Part shown: in pieces, positions 37,534 through 42,135 of the stretch | Layout of the letters: each line of letters starts with the position of its first letter | How positions within the stretch are numbered: the first letter of the stretch is position 1 | DNA from: Phenylobacterium sp. | Lineage (GTDB): Bacteria; Pseudomonadota; Alphaproteobacteria; Caulobacterales; Caulobacteraceae | Direction of reading: 5' to 3' | Assembly (NCBI RefSeq): GCF_013911965.1 | Contig: NZ_JACESE010000010.1 | Span: 1 to 64,000, forward strand | Length of the DNA stretch: 64,000 nt | Position numbers and translations under genes: made by a program | The notes under the pieces: model-generated | The model's input: only the letters and a program-made list of their open reading frames with translations | Database searches by the model: none | Told to the model about the DNA's origin: nothing

Positions 37534-38421
37534 TCAGGCGGCGACCAGGTTCCGCTCCTCGGCGGCGGCCCGCATGGACTTCTGCAGCTTCTCGAAGGCG
37601 CGCACCTCGATCTGGCGCACGCGCTCGCGGCTGACGCCGTACTGGCTGGCCAGTTCCTCCAGCGTGGTCGGGTCGTCCTTCAGCCGCCGCTCGGTCAGGA
37701 TATGACGCTCGCGGTCGGTGAGCTCGGCCATCGCTTCCTCGAGCAGGCCCATGCGCAGGCCGCGCTCCTCGTTCTCGGCGACGATGCTCTCCTGGCTGGG
37801 CGAGTCGTCGTCGGCCAGCCAGTCCTGCCACTCGCTCTCGGAGTCCGAACGCAGCGGCGCGTTCAGCGAGGCGTCCGGGCCGGAGAGGCGCCGGTTCATG
37901 GAGATGACCTCTTCGTCCAGCACGCCGAGCTTGGTGGCGATCTCGCGCACCTGTTCGGGACGCAGGTCGCCCTCCTCGAAGGCGCTGATCTGGCTCTTGG
38001 CCTTGCGCAGGTTGAAGAACAGCTTCTTCTGCGCCGCCGTGGTGCCCATCTTCACGAGGGACCAGGAGCGCAGGATGTATTCCTGGATCGAGGCGCGGAT
38101 CCACCACATGGCGTAGGTGGCCAGGCGGAAGCCCTTGTCCGGATCGAACTTCTTCACCGCCTGCATCAGGCCGACATTGCCCTCGGAGATCACTTCCCCG
38201 ATCGGCAGGCCATAGCCGCGATAGCCCATGGCGATCTTGGCCACGAGACGCAGGTGGCTGGTGACGAGCTTGTGCGCGGCCTCGGAATCCTCATGCTCCT
38301 GCCAGGCCTTGGCGAGCATGAACTCCTCGTCCTTGGCCAGCATCGGAAACTTGCGGATCTCACTCAGGTACCGGCTCAGGCCGCCTTCCGGCGACATGAC
38401 GGCGAGCGTGTTCGCAGCCAT
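37534..38421 (-). CDS. rpoH: RNA polymerase heat-shock sigma factor RpoH (sigma-32)
   Basis: 295 aa. Region 2.1-2.4 core GLMQAVKKFDPDKGFRLATYAMWWIRASIQEYILRSW is typical. QKKLFFNLRKAK is the RpoH box. Region 4 has LTDRERHILTERRLKDDPTTLEEL and GVSRERVRQIEVRAFEKLQ. It directs chaperone and protease genes in heat shock. A strong terminator lies downstream; the 217-bp upstream gap to rluD should carry its promoters, but I could not assign a clear sigma-32 element there. Single gene. Confidence 0.96.
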   Translation of the reverse strand: MAANTLAVMSPEGGLSRYLSEIRKFPMLAKDEEFMLAKAWQEHEDSEAAHKLVTSHLRLVAKIAMGYRGYGLPIGEVISEGNVGLMQAVKKFDPDKGFRLATYAMWWIRASIQEYILRSWSLVKMGTTAAQKKLFFNLRKAKSQISAFEEGDLRPEQVREIATKLGVLDEEVISMNRRLSGPDASLNAPLRSDSESEWQDWLADDDSPSQESIVAENEERGLRMGLLEEAMAELTDRERHILTERRLKDDPTTLEELASQYGVSRERVRQIEVRAFEKLQKSMRAAAEERNLVAA

Positions 38422-38638: not shown

Positions 38639-39649
38639 TCAGAGCTGGGTGAGCAGAGCTTCAAGCTGCGCCATATCGGCGGGCAGGGGGCTCTCGAACC
38701 GGACCGTTTCCCCGGTCACCGGATGGACGAAGCCGAGGACGGCGGCGTGCAGGGCCTGGCGGAAAAGGCCGGCGCGGGCCATGGCCTCGCGGACCGGCGC
38801 GGCCGGCATGCCCGAGCCGTAGACGGGATCGCCCAGGCAGGGCGCGCCCTTCGACGCCAGATGGACGCGGATCTGGTGCGTGCGACCGGTCTCCAGCCGG
38901 CAGGCGACGCGGGCGGCCAGGGGGCGCTCGGCCGGGCCGAAGATCGCCGTCGTGTCGTAGTGGGTGACGGCTTCCCGGCCGCCGGTGCGCAGGACGGCCA
39001 TCTTCTTGCGGTCGTGGGTCGAGCGGCCCAGCCGCGTCTCGATCGTGCCCCGCGGCGGATAGGGCGCGCCGCGGGTCAGGGCCACATAGGTCCGTTCGAT
39101 GTCGTGGGCGGCGAAGAGGGCCGACAGGCCCTGGTGCGCGGCGTCGCTCTTGGCGCAGACCAGCACGCCCGACGTGTCCTTGTCGATGCGGTGCACGATG
39201 CCCGGCCGCGCCACGCCGCCCACGCCCGAGAGGCTGTCGCCGCAGTGATGCAGCAGCGCGTTCACCAGCGTGCCGTCCGGGGTTCCCGGCGCCGGGTGGA
39301 CGGCCATGCCCGCCGGCTTGTCCACCACGATGAGGTGGGCGTCTTCGAAGAGGATGGCGAGCGGAATGTCCTGCGGCTCGGGTTCGGCCGGGGCCGGCGG
39401 CGGGATCGCCACCTCGTAGGTTCCCGCCTGGGCGCGGGCGGAGGGGTCGGTCAGGACCAGGCCGTCCCGCGTCACCGCCCCCTGCGCCATCAGGGCCTGC
39501 AGGCGGGCCCGGGACAGGCCCTCGGCCAGGCTGGACAGCGCCTTGTCCAGCCGTTCGCCGGCGGCGTCCGGACCGATCTCCAGGCGAAGCACGTCGGCCG
39601 CCTCGCCGTCGTCGGTCTCGCTCGGCGGAAGGCCCGCCTCAGAGGCCAT
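38639..39649 (-). CDS. rluD: Ribosomal large-subunit pseudouridine synthase RluD
   Basis: 336 aa. N-terminal S4 domain (ERLDKALSSLAEGLSRARLQALM), then the pseudouridine synthase core with GIVHRIDKDTSGVLV (catalytic Asp in RIDKDTSG), RTHQIRVHLA, and a C-terminal GLFRQALHA. RluD modifies three uridines of 23S helix 69. ATG 39649 is chosen; the frame extends 29 codons upstream into the ferritin gene, without similarity. Its start lies 11 bp inside the preceding ferritin gene, so translation is probably coupled. Confidence 0.93.
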   Translation of the reverse strand: MASEAGLPPSETDDGEAADVLRLEIGPDAAGERLDKALSSLAEGLSRARLQALMAQGAVTRDGLVLTDPSARAQAGTYEVAIPPPAPAEPEPQDIPLAILFEDAHLIVVDKPAGMAVHPAPGTPDGTLVNALLHHCGDSLSGVGGVARPGIVHRIDKDTSGVLVCAKSDAAHQGLSALFAAHDIERTYVALTRGAPYPPRGTIETRLGRSTHDRKKMAVLRTGGREAVTHYDTTAIFGPAERPLAARVACRLETGRTHQIRVHLASKGAPCLGDPVYGSGMPAAPVREAMARAGLFRQALHAAVLGFVHPVTGETVRFESPLPADMAQLEALLTQL

Positions 39650-39956
39650 GCTTGCCCGCCGACTCTTCCTCCTGGCCGGTGATGGAGCCTTCGGTGAACA
39701 GGTACTCGCGCAACTGGCCGTCGAACTGCTCGTCATTTCGGCGGATCCATTCCAGGACCATGGCCGCGTGCTCCATTTCCTCCTTCGCGTTGTGAAGAAG
39801 GATGGCTTTCAGCTCGGGATCGTCGCAATCGTCCGCGCGCTGACGGTACCAGTCGACCGCTTCCATCTCCTCCATCAGCGAGGCGATCGCATAGTGGAGC
39901 TGGAGCGTCTTTTTCGTAAGCTTCTCCCGAGGGACGTGCAGGGTCTCGCTGGCCAT
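39639..39956 (-). CDS. Encapsulated-ferritin-like (EncFtn) ferroxidase subunit
   Basis: 105 aa of a two-helix ferritin-like protein. The core YAIASLMEEMEAVDWYRQ...KAILLHNAKEEMEHAAMVLEW strongly resembles the R. rubrum EncFtn (recalled from memory: VSVMEELEAVDWYDQR and DEEKEHAAMTLEW). Ferroxidase residues match: E30, W36, E60 and H63 here stand for E32, W38, E62 and H65 there. LFTEGSI at the end of the second helix also matches. But the C-terminus (EEESAGKHGL) shows no encapsulin-targeting peptide and no encapsulin gene is nearby. ATG 39956 has AGGAGA about 10 nt upstream. The gene overlaps rluD. Confidence 0.85.
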   Translation of the reverse strand: MASETLHVPREKLTKKTLQLHYAIASLMEEMEAVDWYRQRADDCDDPELKAILLHNAKEEMEHAAMVLEWIRRNDEQFDGQLREYLFTEGSITGQEEESAGKHGL

Positions 39957-40031
39957 GGGCATCATTCTCCTGTCGCAGAAGCGCTCTCTATTGCACGGCC
40001 GACCACATGGCGCGAGTTGGGGGACACCATC

Positions 40032-41711
40032 ATGAAGATCGATCGACGCAGGGCGCTCGCCCTCCTTGGCCTCGGTGCGGCGGCGCCCGCGAGCGGCGCC
40101 CTGGCCCAGGGCGCCTATGAGGGCCCCGTGGCCTTCGAACACGGGGTCGCCTCCGGCGATCCCCTGCCGAACGCCATGATCCTGTGGACCCGCATCACGC
40201 CCAAGGCGGAGACCAGCGCGCCCATCGCCTACACCTGGCGCATCAATCCGGTGGACCGCCGGGCGGGCAGCGCCAAGTCGGGGAGCGGCGTCACCGGCCC
40301 CGACCGGGACTACACGGTGAAGATCGACGTCACCGGCCTCGATCCGGACCGCGCCTACACCTACGAGTTCGAAGCCAACGGCGTGACCTCGCCCATGGGC
40401 CGCACCCGGACGCCTTCCACCGGCGAGACGCTCGAGGTGGTCCTCGCGGTGGCCTCCTGCTCGCTCTATCCGAACGGCTATTTCAACGCCTACCAGGCCA
40501 TCGCCGACCTGCCCAAGCTCGACGCCGTCGTCCACCTCGGCGACTACATCTACGAGTACGGGGGCGAAGGCTCCTACGGCATGACCTCGGCCGTGGCGGG
40601 CGAGCGGCCGCACGATCCGCCGCACGAGATCGTCAGCCTCTCCGACTACCGGACGCGCCACGCCCAGTACAAGTCGGACCCGGCCCTGCAGGCGGCGCAC
40701 GCCCGCGCGCCCTGGATCGTGGCCTGGGACGACCACGAGACGGCCAACAACTCCTGGTTCGGCGGCGCCGAGAACCACCAGTCGGAGGCCGAGGGCGACT
40801 GGAACGCCCGCAAGGCCGCGGCGCTCAAGGCCTATTTCGAGTGGATGCCGATCCGCGATCCGGCGCCCGGCGGCGCCTTCGAGGCCATGAACCGCACCTT
40901 CCACTTCGGCGACCTGGTCAGCCTGATCATGCTGGAGACGCGGCTGACGGCCCGTGACGAGCAGCTCGACTACGCCCGCGACCTGCCCGTGGTGGACGGC
41001 AAGCCCGACATCCCGGCCTTCCGCAAGAAGCTGCACGATCCCGCCCGCCGCATGATGAGCGAGGCCCAGGAAGCCTGGTTCGCCAAGGAGGTCGCCGACT
41101 CCGTCAAGGCGGGCCGCACCTGGCAGGTGCTGGGCAACCAGGTGGTCATGGCCCGGGTCGACGTGCCGAGCCCGCGCTCGGTGCTGGGCGAGGAGGCGGT
41201 CGCCGCCGCCATCGCCACCCAGCCGGAGGACATCGCCAAGCGCATCGACCAGATGGAGCGTCTGGCCGCCATGGGCCTGCCCTACGGTCTCGACATGTGG
41301 GACGGCTATCCGGCCGCGCGGGAGCGCCTCTACGACGCCGTGGCCGCCGCCGGCGCCAAGGCCGTCGTCATCTCCGGCGACAGCCACGCCTTCTGGGCCA
41401 ACGAGCTCTATGACGACGAGGGCGCCCTGCGCGCGGTGGAGTTCGGCACGACCGGCATCACCAGCCCCGGCGCCGGCGACTATGTGAAGGGCCTGCCGGT
41501 GGGCGAGCTCTACATGAAGGGCGCCAAGGAGATCGTCTTCTCCGACCACGACGCCAAGGGATTCGTCCTGCTGACCCTGACGCCGGACGAGGTCAAGGGC
41601 GAGCTGATGACCGTCTCCTCCATCGTCTCCAAGGACTATGAGACGGGCGTGCGCGCGGCCTTCACCGCCACGCCCGGCGAAGGCGGCGTGTCGGGCCTGA
41701 CGAAGGTCTAG
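40032..41711 (+). CDS. phoD: Alkaline phosphatase D (PhoD family), Tat-secreted
   Basis: 559 aa, metallophosphoesterase of the PhoD type with an N-terminal Fn3-like PhoD domain (VASGDPLPNAMILWTRI) and metal motifs LGDYIYEYG, WDDHETANN and SGDSHAFWANEL. A twin-arginine signal (DRRRALALLGLGAAAPASGALA) is present, as usual for PhoD. The reaction is phosphodiester/phosphomonoester hydrolysis in the periplasm. It is divergent from the EncFtn gene with only 75 bp between, which must hold both promoters. Confidence 0.92.
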   Translation: MKIDRRRALALLGLGAAAPASGALAQGAYEGPVAFEHGVASGDPLPNAMILWTRITPKAETSAPIAYTWRINPVDRRAGSAKSGSGVTGPDRDYTVKIDVTGLDPDRAYTYEFEANGVTSPMGRTRTPSTGETLEVVLAVASCSLYPNGYFNAYQAIADLPKLDAVVHLGDYIYEYGGEGSYGMTSAVAGERPHDPPHEIVSLSDYRTRHAQYKSDPALQAAHARAPWIVAWDDHETANNSWFGGAENHQSEAEGDWNARKAAALKAYFEWMPIRDPAPGGAFEAMNRTFHFGDLVSLIMLETRLTARDEQLDYARDLPVVDGKPDIPAFRKKLHDPARRMMSEAQEAWFAKEVADSVKAGRTWQVLGNQVVMARVDVPSPRSVLGEEAVAAAIATQPEDIAKRIDQMERLAAMGLPYGLDMWDGYPAARERLYDAVAAAGAKAVVISGDSHAFWANELYDDEGALRAVEFGTTGITSPGAGDYVKGLPVGELYMKGAKEIVFSDHDAKGFVLLTLTPDEVKGELMTVSSIVSKDYETGVRAAFTATPGEGGVSGLTKV

Positions 41712-41730: not shown

Positions 41731-42135
41731 TCACTCGGGCCGTTCCACCAGCTTCCCGTCTTCGACGACGCGATAGAAGCAGGAGCGGAAGCCGACGTGG
41801 CAGGCGCCGCCGTCGCCCTGCGGCCGGACCTTGATCCAGACGCAGTCCTGATCGCAGTCGATCCGCGTCTCGACGACCAGCTGAACCTGGCCGCTGGTCT
41901 CGCCCTTCAGCCACAGTTCCTGGCGCGAGCGGCTCCAGTAGTGGGCCTTGCCCGTCTTCAGGGTCAGGTCGAGGGCCTGCGCGTTCATCCAGGCGAACAT
42001 CAGCACCTCGCCAGTGTCGGCGTGGGTGGCGATGGCGGCGATCAGGCCGTTGTCGTCGAAGCGGGGGGCGATGGTCTCGCCCCGCTCGAGGGCGTGCGTG
42101 TCGGTCAGGGTGGGGAAGCGCTCGGACATGGCCAT
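41731..42135 (-). CDS. hisI: Phosphoribosyl-AMP cyclohydrolase
   Basis: 134 aa, histidine biosynthesis step 3. The typical HisI pattern: [41 protein letters not shown], then the metal region [29 protein letters not shown] with conserved Asp and Cys. It is the HisI-only form, not fused to HisE. No other his gene is in the window. A start at 42129 (MSERF) is as possible as 42135. Confidence 0.93.

Follow-up and report, generated by a model that had tools for sequence, protein, structure and literature searches.

R. rubrum EncFtn freed of its shell has ferroxidase activity, oxidising Fe2+ at a lower rate than apoferritin, and binds no more than 10-15 iron ions in each decamer; at higher iron it forms a precipitate, which is not seen with the shell (PMC5012862). 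The free form cannot store mineral, and the protein must be housed in an encapsulin for iron storage (PMC5012862); a 2020 review also states that EncFtn proteins depend on encapsulin cages for keeping mineral in solution, and treats the preference between O2 and H2O2 as substrate as not settled (PMC7762939). A second type, the s-FLP, is described in a 2024 review (PMC11202242) as a short FLP that has neither an extended disordered C-terminus nor a recognisable targeting peptide, the type of 3K6C. By that account, which cites Giessen and Silver 2017, s-FLPs were first classed as non-encapsulated, and Nitrosomonas europaea NE0167, which has no apparent peptide, is a decamer in the crystal; the review leaves the encapsulation of s-FLPs unclear and notes that a short tail would not hinder it. 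PMC8346489 sought cargo near shell genes, an approach that would miss shell-less copies. Within the literature searched, mostly without subscription papers, we recognised by title no published count of shells in s-FLP genomes. The s-FLP type is already named, and the census given here bears on whether its members are encapsulated.

The EncFtn gene and its product

The stretch of DNA analysed here, called the window, is 64,000 nucleotides of a Phenylobacterium genome (3.86 Mb in 33 contigs, completeness 99.99%) that contains one EncFtn (PF22277). The encFtn gene lies on the minus strand at 39639..39956, with its start at 39956 and its stop codon at 39641-39639, and its 105 codons plus stop give a product of 105 residues. 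The protein matches PF22277 (EncFtn-like) at 132.9 bits against a curated cut-off of 27, and TIGR04535 (encapsulin-associated ferritin-like protein) at 123 bits, slightly below that model's cut-off of 125. Its length, its 18-residue tail after F87 and its lack of a targeting peptide are those of an s-FLP.

Using the names given to the ferroxidase, entry and exit sites of R. rubrum EncFtn (PMC5012862), we aligned the two proteins and found that E30, Y37, E60 and H63 of the window protein correspond to ferroxidase residues E32, Y39, E62 and H65 (codons at 39867-39869, 39846-39848, 39777-39779 and 39768-39770, minus strand). The preliminary description had placed the ferroxidase quartet at E30, W36, E60 and H63; three of these hold, but the ferroxidase-centre residue named for R. 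rubrum EncFtn is the tyrosine, Y39, adjoining the Trp (PMC5012862), and W36 gives way to its neighbour Y37. The stretch carrying these residues (39768..39869, minus strand) also contains E32 of the entry site and H55, E59 and E62 of the exit site, and the other entry-site residue, E29, sits immediately before it. The closest sampled copy from the same genus (L137, from G059) has Leu at residue 36, otherwise a conserved Trp beside the ferroxidase Tyr.

EncFtn was compared over 83 loci, 21 from Caulobacteraceae and 62 from further Alphaproteobacteria. E30, Y37, E60 and H63 are kept in all 83, including the 70 that are shell-less, and E29, H55, E59 and E62 are likewise kept in 70/70 shell-less loci, with E32 and W36 each in 69/70. 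Seven Phenylobacterium encFtn loci, compared in 21 pairs, gave dN values of 0.065-0.227 vs dS values of 0.43-1.59; with dN this far below dS, the substitution pattern indicates that the gene is under purifying selection in the genus. Together with the intact ferroxidase residues, this argues against decay of shell-less EncFtn.

The AlphaFold2 single-chain model (pLDDT 92.4) has helices at residues 15-43, 47-74 and 76-85, giving the two long antiparallel helices and short third helix of EncFtn, with an extra helix at 92-102 within the low-confidence tail. It matches chains of 5DA5 (R. rubrum EncFtn), 5N5F and 3K6C, and the two-helix EncFtn fold anticipated for this protein was found in agreement with that of R. 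rubrum. Judging from 5DA5 and 3K6C, the single chains predicted here would assemble as a decamer with D5 symmetry.

Shell genes and targeting peptides

Having seen no shell gene in the 64 kb, the preliminary description allowed that one might be encoded elsewhere in the genome. A profile search of the whole genome for the encapsulin family PF04454 returned no matches, with 3/14 control genomes positive, which extends the absence from the window to the genome and rejects a shell encoded elsewhere for family 1 encapsulins. The phage capsid family PF05065 was also absent from the whole genome (4/14 control genomes positive). PF19307, the SrpI-like family 2 shell, gave no matches in the genome, but the control genomes were silent as well (0/14).

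A short polar C-terminus without a targeting tail had also been described, and this was borne out: the tail consists of the 18 residues after F87 (39642..39695, minus strand), and a motif search of it found no [LF]x[IV]Gx[LM], no LxI and no LxL. Over the 83 loci, [LF]x[IV]Gx[LM] is present in 13/13 shell-bearing loci vs 0/70 shell-less ones, the window among the latter. EncFtn proteins from the 13 encapsulin genomes are 126-138 residues long with a stretch resembling GSLGIGSLR or LTIGRMKK close to the C-terminus, and their tails after F87 measure 38-49 residues, vs 8-22 in the 70 shell-less loci. The link between peptide and shell has a Fisher p of 1.9e-15, a value that overstates the independent evidence because the rows are related and the shell trait needs only 3 changes in their tree. 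At least two of these changes are forced by well-supported branches, and the tree does not indicate which state is older.

Among 119 Caulobacteraceae genomes, 21 have EncFtn, 98 are without the gene and none has an encapsulin above the cut-off; five genomes of one genus, all without EncFtn, gave a 20-bit partial PF04454 match below the cut-off and were counted as encapsulin-free. Across 385 alphaproteobacterial genomes PF22277 was over its cut-off in 65, and leaving out two weak matches (G403 and G301; about 28 bits) along with all those below the cut-off gave 63 genomes with strong EncFtn. Fifty of the 63 have no encapsulin, namely the window's own genome and 49 others spread over 29 other families, and the 13 of 385 genomes that do have an encapsulin are all among the 63. 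Shell-less EncFtn, taken at first for an exception, is instead the commoner form in the sampled Alphaproteobacteria and belongs to the named s-FLP type.

In the phylum sample, PF22277 was over the cut-off in 21/398 genomes, six of which had been counted before; the new ones comprise ten without shell or peptide, one with both (G752) and four of one divergent genus. In two other genomes (G757 and G787) an encapsulin occurs without any EncFtn match. The EncFtn-like proteins of the divergent genus (L165-L168, from G558, G540, G604 and G745, respectively) score 83-86 bits and have no targeting peptide. By eye, their exit-site residues differ and their ferroxidase residues are kept. G604 and G745 have no encapsulin, whereas G540 and G558 have an unlinked one, distant or on another contig; these two genomes are exceptions to the rule joining peptide and shell, and tagless need not mean shell-less everywhere.

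A named set of 40 genomes reached by another route, which overlaps the first set in at least two genomes and is not fully independent of it, gave 2 genomes with a peptide and an encapsulin next door (Vineibacter terrae, L212, and Anaerosphaera aminiphila, L215) and 38 without encapsulin, these counts resting on genomes without reported completeness. The tail or start is not comparable in L217 (no comparable tail) and L198 (5' part missing as read). In L217, from Sedimenticola hydrogenitrophicus, homology to EncFtn ends at residue 67 and the frame continues into unlike sequence, a frameshift or sequence error. Within the Firmicutes, the peptide-bearing EncFtn of Anaerosphaera beside its encapsulin contrasts with tagless Peptoniphilus proteins (L214 and L216) with no encapsulin match. 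As a working rule for genomes, the presence of the peptide predicts a shell and its absence predicts none, with the one divergent genus as the exception so far.

The tail sequences vary widely between shell-less lineages. Two alphaproteobacterial MAGs, both among the 38 named genomes without encapsulin, encode a 120-residue EncFtn (L203:2785-3144 and L208:3711-4070) with a longer tail in which a DRG[SA]P-type motif occurs twice; this tail resembles neither the targeting peptides nor the short tails, and PF04454 has no match in either genome. Of the tail residues of the 49 shell-less loci outside Caulobacteraceae, 9.2% are histidine, with 36/49 tails containing one; the figures are 5.9% and 16/21 for the 21 Caulobacteraceae loci, vs 0.6% and 3/13 for the 13 shell-bearing loci, whose tails are much longer. 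The count was made post hoc on related rows after the tails had been inspected and is a lead, not a test. The KHGL ending, considered as a possible functional peptide, overlaps the start of the rluD-like gene in 6/7 Phenylobacterium loci, which could explain its conservation, but HGL is kept without this overlap in G108 of the same genus and G043 of the same family. It is possible, and we put this forward tentatively at somewhat below even chances, that EncFtn without a shell forms a distinct and common functional class, a free ferroxidase ring rather than incidental cargo; in place of the targeting peptide it would have a short tail, in many cases with a histidine close to the end, which might serve to bind a partner or the ferric product.

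Gene neighbourhood and alternative explanations

The neighbours had been given as rluD and phoD, and both identities were confirmed. On the downstream side is an RluD-like gene for an RluA-family pseudouridine synthase (38639..39649, minus strand), which scores 274.7 bits against TIGR00005, above the cut-off, and 224 bits against the RluD model NF008385, below its cut-off of 351. The end of encFtn overlaps the likely ATG of this gene, at 39649, by 11 bases (39639..39649, minus strand), and the same placing of the encFtn stop inside the rluD-like start recurs in 6/7 Phenylobacterium loci; the overlap suggests translational coupling of the two genes. Further downstream lies rpoH (37534..38421, minus strand; TIGR02392, 370.8 bits). 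On the other side, a space of 75 bases (39957..40031) separates the divergent starts of encFtn and a phoD-like gene (40032..41711, plus strand; PF09423, 338 bits), and beyond this is hisI (41731..42135, minus strand; NF000768, 160.5 bits). The question of whether encFtn stands beside rluD in other Caulobacteraceae was answered positively, with an rluD-type ORF no more than 400 bases away in 10 loci, and hisI is directly upstream of encFtn in four other loci of the family while a phoD-type gene intervenes in others. The space between encFtn and phoD has no sigma-70 consensus, no terminator and no Rfam match. Across 16 upstream stretches, conservation appears confined to the ribosome-binding site, and no Fur- or Irr-type box was seen by eye.

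Clustering of the flanking ORFs of all 83 loci, judged by cluster representatives, recovered the gene order shared within Caulobacteraceae, the encapsulin gene beside encFtn (in 7 loci) and groups of no more than six loci, with no conserved partner gene outside Caulobacteraceae. Around the 49 shell-less loci outside that family, 97 nearest ORFs were picked by a rough coding score; their commonest Pfam family has four members, and no ferritin or iron-uptake family is among the 25 of 97 Pfam families listed. Near encFtn in four Caulobacteraceae loci is a gene whose product, by its look, may be a TonB-dependent receptor, too few cases to build on. The genes beside encFtn reflect synteny of the lineage and offer no defensible hint of function.

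The alternative that survives best is that EncFtn helps to load a cage of the classical ferritin, bacterioferritin or Dps kind whose gene lies elsewhere in the genome, passing it iron in ferrous or oxidised form and acting as an iron chaperone or accessory oxidase. The window genome has four PF00210 matches, and some sink is needed since free EncFtn cannot store mineral (PMC5012862). We nevertheless find this explanation unlikely: PF00210 is absent in 4/19 EncFtn-bearing Caulobacteraceae (G074, G015, G030 and G061, the last a draft at 91% completeness) vs 15/90 without EncFtn (Fisher p 0.74), and the families listed for the nearest ORFs include no ferritin. Classical ferritin as a replaced or obligatory partner of EncFtn was rejected on this lack of association. 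Such a transfer of iron to a classical ferritin could take place in the window genome but is not a general rule in Caulobacteraceae.

It is also conceivable that EncFtn is in fact encapsulated, either by a shell of HK97 fold invisible to PF04454 or through an unrecognised binding sequence in its short tail. The silence of PF19307 carries no weight here given its equally silent control, and the uncertainty expressed in PMC11202242 leaves room for such packaging. Against this, PF04454 detects the shells adjoining all 13 peptide-bearing loci of the class at E 1e-65 or better and finds none in the window genome, the genome has no PF05065 capsid either, and the tails differ widely among shell-less lineages, so we regard hidden packaging as very improbable. 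That the gene is a relic, former cargo on its way out after loss of the shell, would fit the joint absence of peptide and shell in 70/70 shell-less loci and the gene's absence from 98/119 Caulobacteraceae, but with ferroxidase residues intact in 70/70, purifying selection in the genus and shell-less copies in 29 families besides Caulobacteraceae it is the least credible of these explanations.

A probably free EncFtn and its relation to known systems

With no family 1 encapsulin genome-wide and no targeting peptide, the proposal that this EncFtn works without a compartment stands, and we consider it quite likely that the window protein is a functional EncFtn of s-FLP type, free and working in the cytosol. 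The chain fold, the intact site, purifying selection, the absence of a family 1 encapsulin and of a targeting peptide, and the same pattern in many lineages were all computed here, while ferroxidase activity and the decamer we infer from relatives. The di-iron ferroxidase centre would be formed between two subunits, probably with five such dimers in the assembly, and would bind Fe2+ and oxidise it with O2 or H2O2. Few iron atoms would be held because there is no shell, and the Fe3+ would pass to other sinks. The behaviour of shell-free R. rubrum EncFtn and the need for a cage (PMC5012862, PMC7762939) point to an oxidant or small buffer and not a store, and for this small-capacity role we see the chances as about equal either way. 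Several points count against free EncFtn: without a partner the free form seems costly, R. rubrum EncFtn alone being slow and precipitating; the analysis turned up no expression, partner or regulatory signal in its favour; the rejection of a shell covers family 1 encapsulins; G540 and G558 pair a tagless protein with an encapsulin; and the three shell-trait changes in the tree provide few independent contrasts.

If family 1 encapsulins are missing from 50/63 of the EncFtn genomes sampled in Alphaproteobacteria and yet the ferroxidase residues are kept, EncFtn would have a role outside encapsulins, and names such as 'encapsulin-associated ferritin' would mislead annotation. Both the extent of shell-less EncFtn and the almost perfect match between absence of the shell and absence of the peptide are contrary to the usual picture. 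The role of the free protein is directly testable, as it involves one small protein and one gene removal.

Compared with described systems, the window EncFtn differs from R. rubrum EncFtn Rru_A0973 (5DA5) and H. ochraceum EncFtn (7OE2, 5N5F), which carry a targeting sequence at the C-terminus and are housed as cargo in a family 1 encapsulin shell (PMC5012862, PMC11202242); neither sequence nor shell was found for the window protein. It is set apart from rubrerythrin and sulerythrin by its far stronger PF22277 match (132.9 bits) and by the two-helix EncFtn layout of its chain. It is of the same type as the s-FLP NE0167 of Nitrosomonas europaea (PDB 3K6C), from which it differs in lineage and tail.
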